Shown in pieces: positions 528 to 24,313 of a DNA stretch of 64,000 nt. How positions within the stretch are numbered: position 1 is the stretch's first letter; each line of letters opens with the position of its first letter. A program made the position numbers and the translations under genes. Origin of the DNA: Alcaligenes faecalis (GTDB lineage: Bacteria; Pseudomonadota; Gammaproteobacteria; Burkholderiales; Burkholderiaceae_B); contig NZ_CP023667.1 in the NCBI RefSeq assembly GCF_002443155.1, positions 1,612,001 to 1,676,000 on the forward strand, read 5' to 3'. Under the pieces are notes generated by a model. It saw only the letters and a list, made by a program, of their open reading frames with translations. It made no database searches and had not been told where the DNA came from.

Positions 528-1880
528 ATGTCAGTCCTTATGGATAAAACCAACGATATCAGGCACTTGCTTGATACTGCCCTGGAAGAAAACCAAGAAA
601 CAGGCGTGTATCGCTGCCGTCGTGACATCTTCACGAATCCGGATCTGTTCGAGCTGGAGATGAAGCATATTTTTGAAGGCAATTGGGTCTACTTGGCGCA
701 TGAAAGCCAGTTGCCCAATGTGAATGATTACTTCACTACCTATATTGGCCGCCAGCCCGTGTTTCTGACACGCGGCAAAGACGGCGGCTTGAATGCCTTT
801 ATCAATGCCTGTGCCCACCGGGGCGCCATGCTGTGCCGCCGCAAGCATGGCAATAAAGGCAGTTTTACCTGTCCTTTTCATGGCTGGACCTTCAATAACG
901 CCGGCAAGCTGCTCAAGGTCAAGGACGAGAAAAACACCCAATACCCCGAGCAGTTCAATACCGAAGGCTCGCACGACTTGAAGCGTGTCGCGCGCTTTGA
1001 GAACTATCGCGGCTTTCTGTTTGGCAGTCTGAATCCGGATGTGGTGTCTCTGGATGAATATCTGGGTGAAACCAAGGTCATCATCGACCAGATCGTGGAC
1101 CAAGCCCCTGAAGGCCTGGAAGTGCTGCGCGGCAATTCTTCCTATATCTACGACGGCAACTGGAAGCTGCAGATGGAAAACGGGGCCGACGGCTACCACG
1201 TCAGCAGCGTGCACTGGAACTATTCCGCCACGATGGGTCGTCGCAAAGAGGGCGGCACGCAAGCGGTGGATGCGAACGGCTGGAGCAAAAGCCTGGGCGG
1301 TGTGTATGGCTTTGATTATGGCCATATCTTGCTCTGGACCAAGACCATGAATCCAACCGTGCGGCCGGTCTACGAGCATCGCGAGGAGCTGAAGCAGCGT
1401 CTGGGCGAGGACCGTGCCGAGTTCATCGTGAATCAGACCCGCAATCTGTGCCTGTACCCGAACGTGTATTTGATGGACCAGTTCTCTACCCAGATTCGGG
1501 TAACGCGTCCTATCAGCGTGGACAAGACGGAAGTCACGATTTACTGCTTTGGCCCCAAGGGTGAGAGCGCCGAGCAGCGTGCCATCCGCATCCGTCAATA
1601 CGAAGACTTTTTCAACGTGTCTGGCATGGGAACGGCAGACGATCTGGAAGAGTTCCGTGCTTGTCAGGAAGGCTATGCCGGTATTGCCGCCCCCTGGAAT
1701 GACTTGAGCCGAGGCGCCCCCCTGTGGGTCCAAGGCCCGGACGAGAACGCGACCGCCATGGGCATGAAGCCCTTGATCAGTGGTGGGCGTAGTGAAGATG
1801 AAGGCTTGTTTGTCTGCCAGCACGAGTACTGGGCCAAGACCATGAGCCAGGCACTGAAAGCAGAAAGCGGGGAGGCCTAA
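528..1880 (+). CDS. benA: benzoate 1,2-dioxygenase, large (alpha) subunit
   Basis: Catalytic oxygenase subunit that dihydroxylates benzoate to the cis-diol (1,6-dihydroxycyclohexa-2,4-diene-1-carboxylate). The 450-residue protein has a Rieske motif with C95, H97, C115 and H118 (ACAHRG ... CPFHGW) and a C-terminal mononuclear-iron domain beginning around the [14 protein letters not shown] stretch. The ATG at 528 is chosen because AAAGG lies 7 nt upstream; an in-frame ATG at 483 lacks this and adds residues foreign to the family, and another ATG at 540 is possible. First gene of benABCD; benB follows after 3 nt. Close toluate dioxygenases (XylX) are the main alternative, but the whole set with BenK favours benzoate. 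Confidence 0.95.
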
Positions 1881-1883
1881 GCC

Positions 1884-2372
1884 ATGAACGCAACCTATCA
1901 CTCTATTTGCGCTTTCCTGTATCGGGAAGCCCGTTTGCTGGATGACCGTCAGTGGGATGAATGGCTGGAGTGCTATAGCCCCAACGCCCAATACTGGATG
2001 CCTTGCTGGGACGATGATGATCAGCTGACCGAGGATCCGCATAGCGAGATTTCCTTGATCTTTTATCCCAACCGCAACGGTCTGGAAGATAGGGTGTTCC
2101 GCATCAAGACCGAGCGCTCTGGTGCATCCACGCCCGAGCCGCGTACCGCTCACATGCTCAGCAATATCGAGATTCTGGCCGAGCGCGATGGGCAGGTGGA
2201 TGTTCGCTACAACTTTCTGACGCTGAACCATCGCTACCGGGTGACGGATCAGTTCTTTGGCACGATTTACCTGACTTTGTCGTCTCAGGAGCAGGGCTGG
2301 TTGATCGAGCAAAAGAAGGTAGTGCTCAAGAACGACTACATCCGTCAAGTGATTGATGTGTATCACATTTAA
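1884..2372 (+). CDS. benB: benzoate 1,2-dioxygenase, small (beta) subunit
   Basis: Structural beta subunit of the alpha3-beta3 Rieske oxygenase, 162 residues, the usual length. The sequence has the cone-like SnoaL/beta-subunit pattern (FLYREARLLDDRQWDEWLECY near the start, then NRNGLEDRVFRIKTER) typical of BenB/XylY. Its ATG lies 3 nt after the benA stop, and benC starts 13 nt downstream, so the three are one translationally linked unit. Confidence 0.95.
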   Translation: MNATYHSICAFLYREARLLDDRQWDEWLECYSPNAQYWMPCWDDDDQLTEDPHSEISLIFYPNRNGLEDRVFRIKTERSGASTPEPRTAHMLSNIEILAERDGQVDVRYNFLTLNHRYRVTDQFFGTIYLTLSSQEQGWLIEQKKVVLKNDYIRQVIDVYHI

Positions 2373-2385
2373 AGCGGGGTTAGTC

Positions 2386-3393
2386 GTGAACAGCTATCGT
2401 ATTGCGCTGAATTTTGAGGACGGCGTCACCCGTTTCGTGGACTGTGGGGAACACGAAAAAGTGCTGGATGCCGCGTATCGCCATCAGATCAATCTGCCTA
2501 TGGATTGCTCGGACGGGGTGTGCGGCACTTGTAAATGTCAGGCCGAAAGTGGTCAGTATGAGCAGGGCGATGACTATATCGAGGATGCCCTGACGCAAGA
2601 GGAAGCGGACAAGGGTTTGGTTCTGACCTGCCAGATGATCCCCAAGTCGGACTGCGTGATTGCTGTGCCGATTTCATCGGGTGTGTGCAAAACTGCCGTG
2701 GCCAAGTGGCAGGGGCAGGTATCGGAATGCCGTCAGTATGAGGATGCGGCTTACGAGTTGAAGATTGATGCGGCCGATGAGGCCTTGCCTTTCCTGCCTG
2801 GGCAGTACGTGAATATCACGGTGCCCGGCGGGCAGGCGCATCGCTCCTATTCCTTCAGTTCTGCGCCGGGCGAGCCGTGTTTGAGTTTCCTGATCAAGCA
2901 AGTGCCGGGAGGCCTGATGAGTTCCTGGCTGGCGGCGCAGCCGCTAGGCCAGCAGGTAGAAATCACCGGGCCTTTGGGTAGTTTTTATCTGCGTCAGGTA
3001 ACGCGCCCCTTGCTGTTCCTGGCCGGTGGAACGGGTCTGGCGCCGTTCTTGTCGATGCTGGAAGTGCTGGTCAAGCAAGGCTGTACGCAGCCTGTGCATC
3101 TGGTCTATGGCGTCACCCGTGATCAGGATCTGGTGATGCTGGCAGAGCTGGAGTCCTTTACTCAGCGTTTGCCCGGATTCAGCTACACCACCTGCGTGGT
3201 GGACCCGGAATCCAGCCACGAACGCAAAGGCTACGTCACCCAGCACTTGGATCCGGCGCATTGGCATGACGGGCAGGTGGATGTGTACCTGTGCGGGCCG
3301 CCACCCATGGTGGATGCCGTCAGCCAGTTCATTGATGCGCAAGCCCATGCTCCCGCGAATTTCTACTACGAAAAATTCATCACTAGCCAGTAA
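2386..3393 (+). CDS. benC: benzoate 1,2-dioxygenase electron-transfer reductase
   Basis: Single-chain NADH reductase that feeds electrons to BenAB. The N-terminal domain is a plant-type 2Fe-2S ferredoxin with the cysteine cluster in CSDGVCGTCKC and a later Cys in LVLTCQM. It is followed by an FAD domain (RSYSFSS) and an NAD domain (GTGLAPFLSML, CGPPPMV near the C terminus). I chose GTG 2386, giving 335 residues, because GCGGGG sits just upstream and the protein then starts NSYRIALNFEDG like relatives; ATG codons at 2353/2356 would overlap benB by about 20 nt. Confidence 0.93.
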   Translation: MNSYRIALNFEDGVTRFVDCGEHEKVLDAAYRHQINLPMDCSDGVCGTCKCQAESGQYEQGDDYIEDALTQEEADKGLVLTCQMIPKSDCVIAVPISSGVCKTAVAKWQGQVSECRQYEDAAYELKIDAADEALPFLPGQYVNITVPGGQAHRSYSFSSAPGEPCLSFLIKQVPGGLMSSWLAAQPLGQQVEITGPLGSFYLRQVTRPLLFLAGGTGLAPFLSMLEVLVKQGCTQPVHLVYGVTRDQDLVMLAELESFTQRLPGFSYTTCVVDPESSHERKGYVTQHLDPAHWHDGQVDVYLCGPPPMVDAVSQFIDAQAHAPANFYYEKFITSQ

Positions 3394-3406
3394 ATGCATT
3401 CAAGCA

Positions 3407-3425
3407 ACGCCCCTTTGTGGGGCGT
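3407..3425 (+). other. intercistronic hairpin between benC and benD
   Basis: ACGCCCC and GGGGCGT form a 7-bp perfect stem with a 5-nt loop in the 64-nt benC-benD gap. There is no T-run after it, so it is more likely an RNA-stability or partial attenuation element than a full terminator. benD has its own AAGGA ribosome site at about 3448. Confidence 0.45.
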
Positions 3426-3457
3426 CCTGTGCTGGATGACTCCTACAAGGAAAGATC

Positions 3458-4228
3458 ATGACTACGCCTGTGCGTTTTCATCAAAAAGTGGCCATTGTGA
3501 CGGGCGCGGCCCAAGGCATTGGCCGTCGTGTTACCGAGCGCTTGCAGGCTGAAGGGGCCTGGGTGTTGGCGGTAGACCGCTCTGAACTGGTGCGGGAACT
3601 GGCCAGTGATACGGTCCTGACACTGGAAGTAGATCTGGAAACCGTTGAAGGCGCTCAGGCCGCAGCCCAGGCGGCGCTGGATAAGTGGGGGCGTATTGAT
3701 GTTTTGATCAATAACGTCGGGGGCACGATCTGGACGCGTCCTTACGAGCACTACACGCCGACGCAGATCGAGGCCGAGATACGCCGCTCCCTGTTTCCAA
3801 CCCTGTGGTCCTGTCATGCCGTGTTGCCCAGCATGCAGGCTCAGGGCAGTGGGGCCATTGTGAATGTGTCCTCGATTGCCACTCGCAGCATCAATCGTGT
3901 GCCTTATGCCGCGGCCAAAGGCGGCGTCAATGCCTTGACCGCCTCGTTGGCTTTCGAGAATGCCCAGCGCGGCATTCGGGTCAATGCTGTTTCACCCGGC
4001 GGGACCGAGGCACCGCCACGGCGCATTCCTCGCAATACCCAGAACCAGGAAGATCCCCAGGAAGCGATCTGGTATCAGCAGATTGTCGATCAGACCGTGG
4101 CCAGCAGTTTGATGAAGCGTTACGGCAGCCTGGATGAACAGGCCGCCAGCATTTTGTTTTTGGCCTCCGACGAGGCTTCGTATATCACCGGCACTGTCTT
4201 GCCAGTAGGAGGCGGCGACCAGGGCTGA
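3458..4228 (+). CDS. benD: benzoate cis-diol dehydrogenase (SDR)
   Basis: Oxidises and decarboxylates 1,6-dihydroxycyclohexa-2,4-diene-1-carboxylate to catechol with NAD+. The 256-residue protein is a classical short-chain dehydrogenase: nucleotide motif TGAAQGIG near residue 16, NNVG, catalytic Ser in NVSSIA and the YAAAK Tyr/Lys pair. The ATG is preceded by AAGGA. Fourth ben gene; its product catechol would enter ortho cleavage encoded elsewhere, since no cat genes are in the window. Confidence 0.93.
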   Translation: MTTPVRFHQKVAIVTGAAQGIGRRVTERLQAEGAWVLAVDRSELVRELASDTVLTLEVDLETVEGAQAAAQAALDKWGRIDVLINNVGGTIWTRPYEHYTPTQIEAEIRRSLFPTLWSCHAVLPSMQAQGSGAIVNVSSIATRSINRVPYAAAKGGVNALTASLAFENAQRGIRVNAVSPGGTEAPPRRIPRNTQNQEDPQEAIWYQQIVDQTVASSLMKRYGSLDEQAASILFLASDEASYITGTVLPVGGGDQG

Positions 4229-4299
4229 TCAATCGATGCGCGCGGCTGGTAGAGCGAAGGGCATCAAGACAAAAAAACTCCATTTGGGGGAGACAAATC

Positions 4300-5634
4300 A
4301 TGAAAACACTAGACGTTAATGAAGTGATTGAGCAGGCGCGCTTCGGGCGCTTTCACTGGATGGTGATGAGCCTGTGTGCCTTGTTGCTGATATTCGATGG
4401 CTATGACCTGTTTATTTACGGTGTGGTCTTGCCGGTGCTGATGGACGAGTGGAGTTTGACGCCGGTGCAAGCCGGGGCCTTGGGGAGCTACGCCCTGTTT
4501 GGCATGATGTTTGGTGCTTTTGTGTTCGGGCCGCTGGCAGACAAGATTGGCCGTAAGAAGGGCGTGACGATCTGTTTTGCCTTGTTCAGCCTGGCCACGT
4601 TCCTGAATGGCTTTGCAAGCTCACCGACCGAGTTTGGTGTGTATCGCTTTCTGGCAGGTTTGGGTTGCGGTGGCTTGATGCCTAATGCCGTGGCCTTGAT
4701 GAATGAGTATTCGCCCAAGCGCTCGCGCAGCACTTTGGTGGCGATCATGTTCAGTGGCTATTCATTGGGCGGTTTGCTGTCGGCGGCGATCGGCATCTAC
4801 ATGCTGCCGCGCTTTGGCTGGCAGTCCATGTTTTTCTGCGCGGCCATTCCGCTGTTGTTGCTGCCTTTTATTGTCTGGAAACTGCCCGAGTCGCTGGCGT
4901 TTCTGATGCGTCAGGGGCAAGAGGAAAAAGCACGCCGCATTGTGCAGACCTTGGCTCCTGAATTGGGCGTGTCCCAAGATACCGTCTTGACCTTGCATGA
5001 GCAGAAAAAGGCAGGCGTGCCCATGCTGGATCTGGTCAAGGAAGGACGCTTGCTGGGCACCTTGATGATCTGGGTGGCATTTTTCTGCTGCCTCTTGATG
5101 GTCTATGCCCTGGGTTCCTGGTTGCCTAAACTGATGGCCAATGCGGGCTATAGCCTGGGTTCCAGCCTGTCCTTCCTGGTGGCCTTGAACCTGGGCGGCA
5201 TGTTTGGTGCGATTCTGGGTGGTTGGCTGGGGGATCGTTTCAGCTTGCCTAAAGTGGTTGCCTGGTTCTTTCTGGTGTCGGCGGTGTCCATTACCTTGCT
5301 GGGTTTCAAGAGCCCGACTCTGGTGTTGTACGTGTTGATCGTGATTGCCGGTGCCACCACCATTGGCACGCAGATCCTGCTGTACGCCAATACGGCGCAG
5401 TTCTACCCCTTGTCCATGCGTTCCTCGGGCTTGGGCTGGGCGTCAGGCGTGGGGCGCATCGGTGCCATTGCCGGGCCTTTCCTGGGCGGTACCCTGATGG
5501 CGGCCAAGTTGCCCTTGCAGATGAATTTCATGGCCTTTGCCGTGCCGGGACTTATCGCCATGCTCGCGTTTCTGGTGTTTATGGCATCCTCGCGTTCATC
5601 ACCTAAAGTGGCTTTCAATGCTGTGGTGGGTTGA
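4300..5634 (+). CDS. benK: benzoate:H+ symporter, MFS (AAHS family)
   Basis: Inner-membrane transporter of 444 residues with about 12 membrane segments. It has the aromatic-acid symporter signature FDGYDLFIYG in the first segment and the MFS loop GPLADKIGRKK between segments 2 and 3. It follows benD by 71 nt on the same strand with a GGGGGAG ribosome site, so it should be co-expressed and bring benzoate into the cell. Substrate is inferred from the operon; sister AAHS transporters take vanillate, protocatechuate or 4-hydroxybenzoate. Confidence 0.88.
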   Translation: MKTLDVNEVIEQARFGRFHWMVMSLCALLLIFDGYDLFIYGVVLPVLMDEWSLTPVQAGALGSYALFGMMFGAFVFGPLADKIGRKKGVTICFALFSLATFLNGFASSPTEFGVYRFLAGLGCGGLMPNAVALMNEYSPKRSRSTLVAIMFSGYSLGGLLSAAIGIYMLPRFGWQSMFFCAAIPLLLLPFIVWKLPESLAFLMRQGQEEKARRIVQTLAPELGVSQDTVLTLHEQKKAGVPMLDLVKEGRLLGTLMIWVAFFCCLLMVYALGSWLPKLMANAGYSLGSSLSFLVALNLGGMFGAILGGWLGDRFSLPKVVAWFFLVSAVSITLLGFKSPTLVLYVLIVIAGATTIGTQILLYANTAQFYPLSMRSSGLGWASGVGRIGAIAGPFLGGTLMAAKLPLQMNFMAFAVPGLIAMLAFLVFMASSRSSPKVAFNAVVG

Positions 5635-19976: not shown

Positions 19977-20251
19977 TCTACGCCCGGCCTTGTAGTGCTT
20001 TGCAATAAAGCACCTATATTTACGCTTGATTTCAGCGCCATCTTTTACCTGACGTGTTGCTTTTGCTGCACGCTTGCCTTCGCTCACTTCTCATATCAGA
20101 CAAGTGTAGTAAGCTATTTCCACGATCTGTTTCGCGACCAGCGCTTGATGGTTTTTTCTACCTTGTGCTAACAGCAGACGCGGCCTGGGCAGTCTTCATC
20201 TCGAACGATTCGCCGGGCATCAGCAAACTTCAGGTCAAGGAGAAGGAAATC

Positions 20252-20497
20252 ATGTTTTTCCGCTTAGTTTCTGCCTGCGCAGGCTCTTTGATGTTGACGG
20301 CATGCGCCAGCTCTACCCAAACGGCCACCAAACCCGCGGGGCAAGCCAATCTGGCCTCCACTTTTTGTCAGCGCATGGGTGGGCAAACCATTGTTCATGA
20401 AAGTGGACGTGGCGCCTATGGAACCTGTTTGATGAAAGATGGCTCGGAGTCCGAAGAATGGGCCTTTTATCGTAGCTGGTATCCCCGGATGGACTGA
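20252..20497 (+). CDS. DUF333 small lipoprotein, paralogue
   Basis: 81 residues; lipobox LTAC (about Cys18), then a DUF333 domain (NLASTFCQRMGGQTIV ... CLMKDGSESEEWAFY). Similar in layout to 17675-17914 (Cys, GG, EEW conserved), so a duplicated pair about 2.3 kb apart. ATG 20252 is chosen because AAGGAGAAGGAA precedes it; the longer open frame to 20054 lacks such a site. The 275 nt before it hold no other supported gene. Confidence 0.8.
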   Translation: MFFRLVSACAGSLMLTACASSTQTATKPAGQANLASTFCQRMGGQTIVHESGRGAYGTCLMKDGSESEEWAFYRSWYPRMD

Positions 20498-20599
20498 ATT
20501 CTTTGCCAAATGTGGTTTTTGTGGCGATACAGCGCCGCGATAGCGGGCGAAGGTGATAAACTTATCCAATCAAATGTGTTATTTGGGAAGCAGAATCTT

Positions 20600-20635
20600 A
20601 TGAACTCAACGCGAACTACCCGTCGGCAAATCTAG
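20600..20635 (+). CDS. thrS leader peptide MNSTRTTRRQI (putative)
   Basis: An 11-residue ORF with a GGGAAG ribosome site at 20585-20590, 94 nt upstream of thrS. Three of its first seven residues are Thr (ACG 20609, ACT 20615, ACC 20618). Its stop TAG (20633-20635) is 4 nt before the first of two identical GGCCGCG segments that compete for the terminator arm. This is what a ribosome-mediated attenuator for a threonine-responsive gene should look like. Inferred from layout; translation is not proven. Confidence 0.6.
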   Translation: MNSTRTTRRQI

Positions 20636-20639
20636 CCGT

Positions 20640-20713
20640 GGCCGCGTAGCGTTTCGTTTGCTTTCCAAGAACGTTCAATTCAAAAGCGCGGCTTTTTCAA
20701 GGCCGCGTTTTTT
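20640..20713 (+). promoter_or_regulatory. thrS transcription attenuator (terminator / antiterminator)
   Basis: Terminator: CGCGGC (20687-20692) pairs with GCCGCG (20702-20707) and is followed by T6, ending 16 nt before the thrS ATG. Antiterminator: GGCCGCG at 20640-20646 is identical to 20701-20707 and can pair with the same CGCGGC. A ribosome at the leader stop codon would cover 20640-20646 and favour the terminator; one stalled at the Thr codons would leave it free. Confidence 0.6.
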
Positions 20714-20728
20714 ATTTCAGGAAGTGTT

Positions 20729-22651
20729 ATGGTCCGAATCACACTGCCCGATGGCTCCCAGCGAGAGTTTCAGGGCCCGGTTTCCGTCAGCGAAGTGGCG
20801 AACTCGATTGGCACAGGCCTGGGCCGCGCCGCCCTGGCAGGCCGTGTCGGCACGCCCGGTACCGAGTCGCGTCTGGTGGATACCTCGTATGTGATCGACC
20901 AGGACAGCAATTTGGCCATCATCACCGCCAAAGACGCGGACGGTCTGGATTTGATCCGTCACTCTACTGCCCACTTGCTGGCTTACGCGGTCAAGAGTCT
21001 GTTCCCGGATGCCCAGGTCACCATTGGCCCGGTCATCGACAACGGCTTTTACTACGACTTTTCCTACAAGCGCGCCTTTACGCCCGAGGATCTGGAAGCC
21101 ATTGAAAAGAAAATGGCAGAACTGGCCAAGAAAGACGAAGTGGTGACTCGTGAAGAGTGGCTGCGCGACGATGCGGTCGAGTTCTTCAAGAGCATTGGCG
21201 AGGACTACAAGGCAGAGATCATTGCCTCCATTCCTTCCAACGAGCCAATCAGCCTGTACCGTGAAGGGGACTTCATCGATTTGTGCCGTGGTCCTCACGT
21301 GCCATCCACCGGCAAGTTGAAAGTGTTCAAGCTGATGAAAGTGGCCGGCGCTTACTGGCGTGGCGACAGCAACAATGAAATGCTGCAACGCATTTACGGC
21401 ACTGCCTGGGCGACCAAGGAAGATCAGCAAGCGTACCTGACCATGCTGGAAGAGGCCGAGCGCCGCGACCACCGCAAGCTGGGCCGTGAGCTGGATCTGT
21501 TCCACTTCCAGGAAGAGGCTCCCGGCCTGATTTTCTGGCACCCCAAAGGTTGGGTGATCTGGCAACAGGTCGAGCAATACATTCGCCGTGTCTATCAGGA
21601 CAATGGCTACCAGGAAGTGAAAGCGCCACAAATTCTGGATTTGTCGCTGTGGAAGAAAACCGGCCACTGGGACAACTACGCTGAAAACATGTTCACGACC
21701 GAGTCGGAGAACCGTGTTTATGGCTTGAAGCCCATGAACTGCCCCGGCCACGTGCAAATCTTCAACTCCGGCCTGCATTCCTACCGTGAACTGCCTATTC
21801 GTTACGGCGAGTTCGGTCAGTGCCATCGCAACGAACCTTCGGGTGCCTTGCACGGCATGATGCGTGTGCGCGGCTTTACGCAAGACGACGGTCACATTTT
21901 CTGTACCGAAGATCAACTGCAAGACGAATGCGCTGCCTTTACGGCTCAGTTGCAAGCCGTGTATGCGGACTTCGGCTTTACCGAAATTCTGTACAAAGTG
22001 GCTACTCGCCCAGAAAAGCGTATCGGTGACGATGCTGTCTGGGACAAGGCTGAACAAGCCCTGATCGAAAGCTTGCGCCGTACCGGCTGCGAGTTCGAGA
22101 TCTCGGAAGGCGAGGGCGCTTTCTATGGCCCGAAGATTGAATACACACTGAAAGATGCCATTGGTCGTCATTGGCAGTGCGGCACCATCCAGGTGGACTT
22201 CTCCATGCCGGCCCGTTTGGGTGCCGAGTATGTGGATGCTCAGGATCAACGTCGCGTGCCCGTGATGTTGCACCGTGCTATTTTGGGCTCCTTCGAGCGC
22301 TTTATCGGCATGCTGATTGAAAACCACGCCGGCGCCTTGCCTGCCTGGTTGGCGCCGGAGCACGTGGTGGTATGCTGCATTTCCGAAAGTTCAGCGGATT
22401 ATGCCCAATCCGTGGCGCAAAACCTGAAGAAAATGGGATTCCGTGCCTCCTCTGATTTGCGTGGTGAAAAAATCACTCGTAAAATCCGTGAGCACAGTAT
22501 GCAAAAAGTGCCCTATATTCTGGTCGTGGGCGAGAAAGAGCGTGAAAACGGCGCAGTTGCCGTACGTGCGCGTGGTGGCGTGGACTTGGGCGTCATGCCA
22601 GTAGCCGATTTTTCAGCACGATTGAAGCAAGAGATCGATAGCCGTCAGTAA
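20729..22651 (+). CDS. thrS: threonyl-tRNA synthetase
   Basis: Class II aminoacyl-tRNA synthetase, 640 residues, the normal length. N-terminal TGS domain (about 1-62), editing domain with the [12 protein letters not shown] zinc-site motif and [10 protein letters not shown], catalytic core with [11 protein letters not shown] and a C-terminal anticodon-binding domain. Charges tRNA-Thr. Ribosome site AGGAAG. Preceded by a Thr leader peptide and attenuator and followed by infC after 46 nt, so infC should respond to thrS control. Confidence 0.97.
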
Positions 22652-22697
22652 AACAGGAACGCTATCGTTTTTATCGACATTTTTAGGAGTTTTCGAC

Positions 22698-23222
22698 ATC
22701 GCAACCGAGAAAAAACATCGCATCAATGGTGAAATTCGTATTCCAGAGGTGCGACTCATTGGAGTCGAGGGTGAGCAGCTAGGTATCGTCAAGGTGCCTG
22801 ACGCCTTGGCTATGGCAGAACAGCATGATGTGGACCTGGTGGAAATCGCCCCTGCGGCTGTGCCACCGGTGTGCCGTTTGATGGATTACGGCAAATTCCG
22901 CTATCAGGAACAGAAGCGCCAACAAGAAGCCAAGGCCAAGCAGAAAATCATTCAGATCAAGGAAGTCAAATTCCGTCCCGGTACGGATGAAGGCGACTAC
23001 CAGGTCAAGCTGCGTAATGTGAAGCGTTTCATCGATGATGGCGACAAGGTCAAAGTGACTTTGCGTTTCCGTGGTCGTGAAATGGCTCACCAGGAATTGG
23101 GGATGCGTGTGCTGGAACGGATTCGCGACGAAGTCAGCGAAATCTGTCAGGTTGAAGCCATGCCCAAGCTGGAAGGCCGTCAAATGGTCATGGTCTTGGC
23201 GCCTCGCAAGAAAGCGTCCTGA
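22698..23222 (+). CDS. infC: translation initiation factor IF-3 with AUC start
   Basis: 174 residues. Binds the 30S subunit, blocks premature 50S joining and rejects non-standard start codons. The family N terminus ([20 protein letters not shown]) is only reached from ATC 22698, with AGGAG at 22685-22689 and 8-nt spacing; no ATG/GTG/TTG exists at a suitable place (GTG 22749 would remove 17 conserved residues). A rare start is known for infC (AUU in E. coli) and underlies autoregulation by IF3. The C-terminal half holds [12 protein letters not shown]. Confidence 0.92.
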
Positions 23223-23240
23223 TACTCTTGCACGATACTG

Positions 23241-23300
23241 CCTGGGTCCGCCCAGGAGCATTATGCGTCGCCCGATTCGCTCCCAAGTAGCGAGTCGGGC
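23241..23300 (+). other. two hairpins downstream of infC
   Basis: CCTGGG-TCCG-CCCAGG (23241-23256) and GCCCGATTCGCT / AGCGAGTCGGGC (23270-23300, one wobble pair) form consecutive stems before the terminator at 23306. They may protect the thrS-infC mRNA end. Confidence 0.5.
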
Positions 23301-23305
23301 ACAAT

Positions 23306-23337
23306 CGCCTTTGCAGCCCGTCTGCAAAGGCGTTTTT
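23306..23337 (+). terminator. terminator after thrS-infC
   Basis: CGCCTTTGCAG-CCCGT-CTGCAAAGGCG gives an 11-bp perfect stem followed by TTTTT. It separates infC from gshB by closing the thrS-infC transcript. Confidence 0.88.
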
Positions 23338-23350
23338 CTCTAGGTGTGAT

Positions 23351-24313
23351 ATGCACGTTTTATTCATCATTGATCCCTTGCCCAGCCTGTCGGCTTACAA
23401 GGATTCCTCCGTTGCCATGATGCGTGCATTCCTGGCGCGTGGTCATCGCGTCAGCGTGACCTTGCAGTCTGATTTGTACATTTCCCAAAGCCGGGTTCGT
23501 ACGCGCAGTCAGGCTGTCAGCATTGCCGCTGATGCTGATTTGCGTGCGCCGTCGTGGTGGACTTATCCCGAAGCTGCTACCGAGCAGGAATTGAATGTCT
23601 TTGACGCAGTCATCATGCGCAAGGACCCGCCCTTTGATATGGAATATTCCTATTCCACACACTTGCTCAGCTTTGCACAGGAGCAGGGGGCCAAGGTATT
23701 CAATTCGGGTGCGGCCATTCGCAATCACCCTGAAAAACTCGCTATTACCGAATTTCCGGAATTTACCCCTCCCACCTTGGTTACCCGTGACATGGCCCGC
23801 TTGCGTGCCTTTCACCAGGAACACAAGGATGTGATCGTCAAGCCGCTGGACGGCATGGGTGGCATGGGTATTTTCCGTCTGCAAGATCCCGAGCCCAATC
23901 TGGGCGCGATCCTGGAAACGTTGACGGCCAATGGGACGCAAACCATTATGGCGCAGCGCTACATCCCTGAAATCGTCAAGGGTGACAAGCGCATCCTGAT
24001 TATTGACGGCGAACCTGTGCCTTATGCTTTGGCTCGTATTCCCTTGGCGGGCGAGACTCGCGGCAATCTGGCAGCCGGTGGTCGCGGGGTTGCCCAACCC
24101 TTGTCCGAACACGATTGGCATATTGCCCGTACCCTGGGCCCTGTGCTGGCCGCACGTGGCTTGCTGCTGATTGGTCTGGATGTGATTGGTGACTACGTTA
24201 CCGAAATCAATGTGACCAGCCCAACTTGTTTCGTTGAAATTACTGAGCAGACAGGTTTTGACGTTGCACAGCGTTTTGCCGAGGCCGTCGAACAAGCGAC
24301 GGGACGCGCGTGA
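23351..24313 (+). CDS. gshB: glutathione synthetase
   Basis: ATP-grasp ligase, 320 residues, joining gamma-glutamylcysteine and glycine. Matches the prokaryotic GshB pattern: start MHVLFIIDPLPSLSAYKDSS, KPLDGMGGMGIF in the ATP-grasp loop, DKRILIIDGEP and the C-terminal INVTSPTCFVEI. Followed, with a 4-nt overlap, by a mannose-type EIIA gene, an arrangement I recall from other betaproteobacteria (gshB-EIIA-ptsH-ptsI). Confidence 0.95.
   Translation: MHVLFIIDPLPSLSAYKDSSVAMMRAFLARGHRVSVTLQSDLYISQSRVRTRSQAVSIAADADLRAPSWWTYPEAATEQELNVFDAVIMRKDPPFDMEYSYSTHLLSFAQEQGAKVFNSGAAIRNHPEKLAITEFPEFTPPTLVTRDMARLRAFHQEHKDVIVKPLDGMGGMGIFRLQDPEPNLGAILETLTANGTQTIMAQRYIPEIVKGDKRILIIDGEPVPYALARIPLAGETRGNLAAGGRGVAQPLSEHDWHIARTLGPVLAARGLLLIGLDVIGDYVTEINVTSPTCFVEITEQTGFDVAQRFAEAVEQATGRA

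Follow-up and report, generated by a model that had tools for sequence, protein, structure and literature searches.

A predicted threonine-sensing transcription attenuator upstream of thrS in Alcaligenes faecalis and its relatives

The leader of thrS, the threonyl-tRNA synthetase gene of Alcaligenes faecalis, is very probably a ribosome-mediated transcription attenuator which senses Thr-tRNA-Thr. It combines a short ORF with the appearance of being translated, cognate codons that are both enriched and conserved, a predicted intrinsic terminator, and an antiterminator that is mutually exclusive with this terminator across species. The computed basis of the prediction comprises sequence, conservation, threonine enrichment, cross-species alternative helices and spacing; we infer where transcription would start, and that the leader would be translated, stall ribosomes, allow readthrough and respond to threonine. 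As the mechanism is already known, the thrS leader represents another, widespread, case of it. Both the mechanism and the kind of element are familiar; their occurrence before thrS in this group appears to be new, and this is well supported by the sequence comparisons.

In the window (the whole 64,000-nucleotide stretch that was analysed, with the leader elements, thrS and infC all on the + strand), the leader ORF MNSTRTTRRQI occupies positions 20600..20635, with its ATG at 20600, its stop codon TAG at 20633-20635, and the codons ATG AAC TCA ACG CGA ACT ACC CGT CGG CAA ATC TAG. Threonine is found at residues 4, 6 and 7 (codons at 20609, 20615 and 20618), and the CGA codon lies at 20612. A purine-rich 5′ block at 20585..20594 is likely to contain the ribosome site of the leader, and its predicted partner in the minimum-energy fold is at approximately 20657-20666. 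Segment 1 (ACGCG, 20609..20613) lies within the ORF and has as its partner the CGCGT of segment 2 (GGCCGCGT, 20640..20647), which also contains a GGCCGCG motif (20640-20646). Segment 3 (GCGCGGCT, 20686..20693, including CGCGGC at 20687-20692) is the other partner of segment 2 and forms the 5′ arm of a predicted intrinsic terminator (3:4) at 20682..20713. This terminator consists of a 14-pair stem (20682-20712) and a run of six T (20708-20713), directly before which lies a second copy of GGCCGCG (20701-20707). The hairpin ends 16 nt upstream of thrS (20729..22651; Pfam TGS, tRNA_SAD, tRNA-synt_2b and HGTP_anticodon). A first-pass annotation of this DNA had already placed the leader ORF, the three repeat segments, the T run and thrS, and direct reading together with a script recovers each of them at the same base.

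The gene downstream of thrS is infC, which encodes IF3 (22698..23222; Pfam IF3_N and IF3_C) and probably starts at an ATC codon; a non-AUG start is usual for IF3. With an IF3 ORF following thrS at about 22698, the coupling of infC to threonine charging that had been suggested earlier is plausible. The next gene after infC is a glutathione synthetase gene (23351), instead of rpmI-rplT. Upstream of the leader, a DUF333 lipoprotein gene ends at 20497.

In the proposed mechanism, RNA polymerase would start near 20570 and a ribosome would begin translating MNSTRTTRRQI. With ample Thr-tRNA-Thr, the ribosome would reach the stop codon and cover segment 2, upon which 3:4 would pair and transcription would stop at approximately 20713. 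When charged tRNA-Thr is scarce, the ribosome would wait at the core threonine codons, breaking the 1:2 helix and leaving segment 2 free. The free segment 2 would then form 2:3 first, no terminator would arise, and thrS, perhaps together with infC, would be read. Should the leader not be translated at all, 1:2 and 3:4 would both form and transcription would end.

Conservation of the leader was followed in a named set of 81 thrS loci, made up of the window and the best 80 of 586. Leaders were first selected on a CGAAC or CGGAC that is in frame and close to the start, which gave a leader ORF in 54/81 loci, including the window; because this pick fixes the Arg-Thr codons, they were left out of the evidence. 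Outside these codons and the start, threonine accounts for 156/573 codons (27%), the two alternative frames giving 16/465 and 48/465. The codon that follows the fixed threonine, here called the second core position, encodes threonine in 43/54 leaders (ACG 25, ACA 8, ACC 7, ACT 3). Since all four threonine codons are used, it is the amino acid that is kept, and not one nucleotide string. A T-tailed terminator lies downstream of 53 of the 54 leaders, although the named species are partly close relatives and the counts in this set are not independent events.

A held-out set of 29 further loci from the window's family (L143-L171, of which L160 duplicates the named locus L004) showed a similar picture, with a terminator near thrS in 27. 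A short ORF with at least three threonines in five codons stands just before the terminator in 22 of these 27 loci; 100 dinucleotide shuffles of the same loci averaged 0.4 loci with such an ORF and never gave more than 3, and the same test for other residues exceeded one locus for none of them. Two same-genus loci carry the leaders MKTTRTTRRQN and MTITTRTTHWSV. A peptide motif, applied to 189 thrS upstream regions, identified a leader ORF in 128, made up of 53/81 in the named set with the window, 24/29 in the family set, 22/50 in further regions and 29/29 in model-chosen regions. When the model-chosen regions are left out the count is 99/160. These figures include the identical pair L160 and L004, both without a leader, and two doubtful picks, namely L195 and the start of L170. 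The first-pass annotation had named loss of the leader ORF or its threonine codons in relatives as grounds for abandoning the idea; instead, the leader is kept in most of the Alcaligenaceae-type loci examined and well beyond them.

The competing helices are best seen by comparison between species. In the window alone, neither 2:3 (p 0.129) nor 1:2 (p 0.284) is better than in shuffled sequences, and significance is reached only across species. A shuffle test on each sequence separately reached p 0.05 in 17/53 leaders for 2:3 and in 10/53 for 1:2. Because this test is weak one by one, a swap test was adopted, which sets the energy of each leader segment with its own partner against its energies with the partners from every other species, after centring by row and column. 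Across 127 leaders the own partners were better for 2:3, 1:2 and 3:4, each with 0/5000 permutations doing as well, while five control combinations gave 812 to 4873 of 5000; these counts are not strict probabilities because related sequences are not independent. An earlier run on 52 leaders had likewise given 0, 0 and 0 of 5000 for the three helices. With 31 divergent representatives the values were 2/5000 for 2:3, 0/5000 for 3:4 and a weaker 252/5000 for 1:2, and among the controls the middle paired with the 3′ arm gave 273/5000 and the others 2992 to 4704. The 5′ block and the middle also match within species (7/5000 on 127 leaders, 6/5000 on the 31 representatives, 96/5000 on the 52).

The helices themselves vary widely in sequence, with 88 distinct uninterrupted 2:3 helices in 128 leaders, such as GGCCGCGT/GCGCGGCT in the window and TAGTCGCG/CGCGACTA, GTTCGCGC/GCGCGGAC and CTGAGTCG/CGACTTAG elsewhere. 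Co-changes in 1:2 are seen as CGCGAACT/AGTTCGCG in some leaders, and L142, whose leader is MTPLTT, shows a corresponding change. An alignment-based consensus fold of 44 leaders contains the terminator only, where for 4/7 pairs both bases differ in at least one sequence; the position of segment 2 shifts between families. The proposal that two GGCCGCG copies compete for one partner, giving mutually exclusive structures, is supported by the swap tests, in which 2:3, 1:2 and 3:4 all fit across species.

Spacing is consistent with control by a translating ribosome. Measured to the first base of each codon, segment 2 starts 25 nt past the first core threonine codon and 7 nt past the stop codon in the window, and a median of 28 nt and 5 nt past them across leaders. 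With assumed ribosome footprints, segment 2 starts 15 nt or more beyond the first core threonine codon, and is hence free of a waiting ribosome, in 121/127 leaders, and overlaps the footprint of a ribosome at the stop codon in 119/127. Its position has a standard deviation of 7.9, compared with a mean of 18.6 and a minimum of 16.4 for shuffled middles, and its pairing score is 18.1, compared with a mean of 14.9 and a maximum of 15.5.

Folding of the window RNA (156 nt) is better than that of shuffled sequences (z -2.44; 2/200 shuffles as good). With a ribosome masked at the threonine codons, 2:3 forms (-17.3 kcal) before segment 4 is made; with the ribosome masked at the stop codon and the 5′ block free, 2:3 does not form. 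These masked folds and the spacing agree with the geometry put forward earlier, in which a ribosome at the stop covers segment 2 and one stalled on threonine codons does not. Folding just the RNA 3′ of the stop-bound ribosome still gives weak pairing between what remains of the middle and segment 3 (-8.2 kcal). In the complete RNA the terminator has the greater stability in every state tested (-24.0 kcal even with a stalled ribosome). The finished RNA therefore prefers the terminator at equilibrium, and antitermination must be kinetic, set by the order of events, which is also what decides in classical attenuators.

The Arg-Thr step of the leader is nearly invariant in its codons, and in the window this CGA-ACU pair occupies 20612-20617. 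Held-out leaders with Arg-Thr (n=65) have CGA in 65/65 and ACU in 62/65 (ACG in 2, ACC in 1). Leaders found with thrS rather than with the covariance model form the fairer subset, because the model was trained on CGAAC leaders, and here CGA is seen in 43/43 and ACU in 40/43. Exceptions include CGG in three named leaders (L035, L044 and L050); L189, which has a TTG start and lies outside the set, reads CGT-ACU and then CGA-ACG. Both codons are uncommon in the 81 thrS genes, CGA making up 126/3321 arginine codons and ACU, which is a wobble-read codon, 193/2178 threonine codons. Pairing with RTTCG, the partner of CGAAY, accounts for part of this constancy at most (RTTCG is found in 37/128 middles; shuffles have a mean of 25.6 and a maximum of 37). 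In Salmonella his-leader assays, the accessible parts of one report describe CGA as being translated more slowly than CGC and CGU (PMC4046918).

That a rare Arg-Thr codon pair should show so little variation before thrS calls for an explanation. A tentative one, which we consider possible rather than probable, is that the thrS attenuator is ancient within one proteobacterial order and uses the near-locked, slow CGA-ACU pair as a built-in pacing device. Slowing of every ribosome at the first threonine codon would keep translation synchronised with RNA polymerase and may make the switch more sensitive to slight falls in Thr-tRNA-Thr. The near-fixation of the pair (also in the thrS-found subset), its rarity in thrS genes and the slowness of CGA in the his-leader assay would also suit an unlikely alternative, in which the leader senses slow CGA-ACU decoding (arginine supply, tRNA modification or antibiotics), or acts by nascent-peptide arrest, with the threonine codons being incidental. 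That some families have two threonine codons only is in keeping with this, and 22/128 leaders have just one or two (e.g. MTPRTC... and MTPRTW...), which weighs against the attenuator reading. However, the second core threonine is retained as described above although it is free among four synonyms, and arginine is lost while threonine is kept in six f22 leaders and in L142, L172 and L183 (MTPLTT, MRPPTT, MVPPTTT, MTPLTY). The CGG codons of L035, L044 and L050, and the fact that the controlled gene would be the cognate thrS, also argue against this alternative.

Control of thrS is known from other bacteria, and in E. coli it involves a translational operator, where ThrRS binds and blocks translation. 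Like the thrS leader described here, this operator is an autogenous control region just before thrS, but it acts through protein binding and a translation block and has neither leader ORF nor terminator. ThrRS autoregulation is also mentioned in the available portion of a published account (PMC2965389). For the window, an E. coli-like operator, whose hairpins would mimic the tRNA-Thr anticodon arm and allow ThrRS to repress translation, is highly improbable: the hairpin does lie 16 nt upstream of thrS, and NGU is present in 44/128 terminator loops (no chance rate was computed for this), but the loops are diverse (88 distinct in 128, most without NGU), loops such as CTGGT and CTAGT can lengthen the 2:3 helix, and the T run and the conserved threonine ORF would be left unexplained. 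Just as improbable is the view that the hairpin simply terminates the upstream lipoprotein gene, the short ORF being there by chance and the thrS promoter being unregulated, since, for all that this gene ends at 20497, that strong terminators are common and that several weaker model matches elsewhere seem to be gene-end terminators, the upstream genes vary by species (a tRNA gene in many) while leader and terminator stay with thrS, and threonine enrichment and the swap tests also speak against it.

One of the closest known counterparts of the attenuator proposed here is the pheST leader (pheM) of E. coli, in which a cognate-rich leader peptide is combined with a terminator and an antiterminator. 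Both stand before an aminoacyl-tRNA synthetase gene and have competing structures of this type; the amino acid and the gene differ, and no sequence relation is claimed. The E. coli thrABC leader (thrL) also uses a threonine-sensing leader peptide for attenuation, but controls biosynthesis instead of a synthetase and has a longer, Thr/Ile-rich peptide. In Firmicutes, T-box control of thrS senses the charging of tRNA-Thr and acts on transcription termination, as would the thrS leader, but the tRNA is bound directly and there is no leader peptide. No T-box matches 20000-24000 of the window, nor does the window give a clear indication of an E. coli-type operator. For a large group of bacteria, both environmental and host-associated, the leader offers a concrete explanation of a possible tie between threonine charging and thrS, and perhaps also IF3. 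It is a recurrent RNA element as well, whose many natural variants can be used to test attenuator rules.

Full-text searches of the literature brought up no report of a thrS leader peptide for this group; a 2010 article by Lopatovskaya (Mol Biol 44:128), reportedly on attenuation of aminoacyl-tRNA operons, may predict one. The literature checked included the available parts of PMC4603805 and PMC4833913. The accessible text of PMC1262725 names pheST as a gamma-proteobacterial case of attenuation and puts forward trpS and leuS of Streptomyces as candidates for leader attenuation, and in B. cenocepacia short 5′UTRs before two tRNA-synthetase genes are noted in the sections available (PMC5688073). 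In Streptomyces lividans TK24, a leader peptide is annotated before thrS (thrL-thrS), with an attenuator from RNA-seq, according to the available part of that study (PMC8079986). The same part indicates that this actinobacterial thrL shares with our leader a short ORF with threonine codons before thrS, but differs in its peptide (MKRVRPFLETTPGFVPAR, with two threonines), its leaderless start and its lack of a clear rho-independent terminator (PMC8079986). The first-pass annotation called an attenuator of this type not the textbook solution for thrS; its view of the novelty was somewhat overstated given the S. lividans annotation, as far as the available part of that source goes (PMC8079986).

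The breadth of the element was assessed with a covariance model built from 44 leaders and run on 250 genomes of the order. At E 0.01 a match was found in 194/250 genomes, many of the weak matches covering the terminator part only. The 30 best matches (E up to 2.1e-12) all lie within about 210 nt upstream of thrS. Ranks 31-64, compared by eye with the thrS places listed, comprise 12 at thrS, 7 not at thrS and 15 without a listed thrS place; among three of these 15 that were inspected, L229 and L230 are at thrS and L231 is not. Six of the seven (L223-L228) seem, from reading the stretches, to be gene-end terminators, and the seventh (L222) is a leader at the end of a contig. The 50 further thrS upstream regions, mostly from other families, contain leaders that diverge further, such as MFRTSTTTQS, MLFRTRTRTF and MSFRTTTTGIKHFA. 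Leaders are present in 22/36 GTDB families examined at thrS (including L229 and L230), out of a sample of 51 families; some of these entered via model matches, and the named loci are not mapped to them. In 185 genomes of the class the model at E 1e-6 matched five, namely that of the window, another from the same order, and three belonging to other orders. Absence outside the order is weakly tested by this, because several families within the order score weaker than E 1e-6. From this distribution the element seems to be an old trait of the order, with absence elsewhere judged by one model at one cut-off. A DNA pattern (ATGACACCGCGAACNNC, one mismatch) was rejected as unspecific, with hits in 93/250 genomes and thrS at 12/30 of its loci.

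A putative extended -10 promoter element (TGATAAACT, 20554..20562) lies upstream of the leader in the window, and similar elements recur in relatives. The pattern TA[AC]A[ACT]T is found 15-80 nt upstream of the leader ATG in 49/98 leaders (shuffles: mean 7.7, max 15), and TGN stands immediately 5′ of it in 30/98 (shuffles 0.56), the 98 rows including one artefact (L103). A simple promoter and terminator scan of 20000-21500 returned no promoter (no sigma-70-type site) and also missed the leader terminator. At the leader site Rfam 15 yields nothing above threshold, and no T-box covariance model matches at E up to 1 in 20000-24000; the only match in the same region, L20_leader (RF00558), scored 24.9 bits against a threshold of 58.7 (E 0.083), which was taken as chance. 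ARAGORN found no tRNA gene near thrS in the window. In other genomes a tRNA gene resembling, by eye, tRNA-Val is often directly upstream of the thrS leader region (e.g. L024, L028 and L032-L034).

Counting against the attenuator reading, the peptide motif finds no leader in 61/189 regions (60/188 without the repeated locus), and in 40 of these 61 the hairpin is still present, the other 21 having no recognised hairpin. Four of the 61 (L032, L033, L179 and L189) show CGAAC-type cores and were missed by the motif. The Polynucleobacter loci L040, L041, L045 and L051 have neither a leader nor a recognised hairpin. L004 and L161 look like true leader losses, in which a promoter-like element and the hairpin alone remain. 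Retention of the hairpin after loss of the leader suggests either another role for the hairpin or decay under way. A GC-rich, T-tailed hairpin close behind promoter-like sequence, with no motif leader, is seen in L004 (= L160), L161, L013, L063, L065, L069 and L070, the promoter-like part in L063 and L065 being judged by eye only. A decayed-looking leader is seen in Polaromonas (L080:2833-2975), with ATA for ATG and CGAATT for CGAACT, and with the terminator kept. At one contig end (L222, G021:C356), a thrS-type leader (MSFRTTTTGTLNLG) and terminator are found while thrS lies on another contig; the sequence right after the terminator resembles what we take to be the 5′ end of a group II intron.
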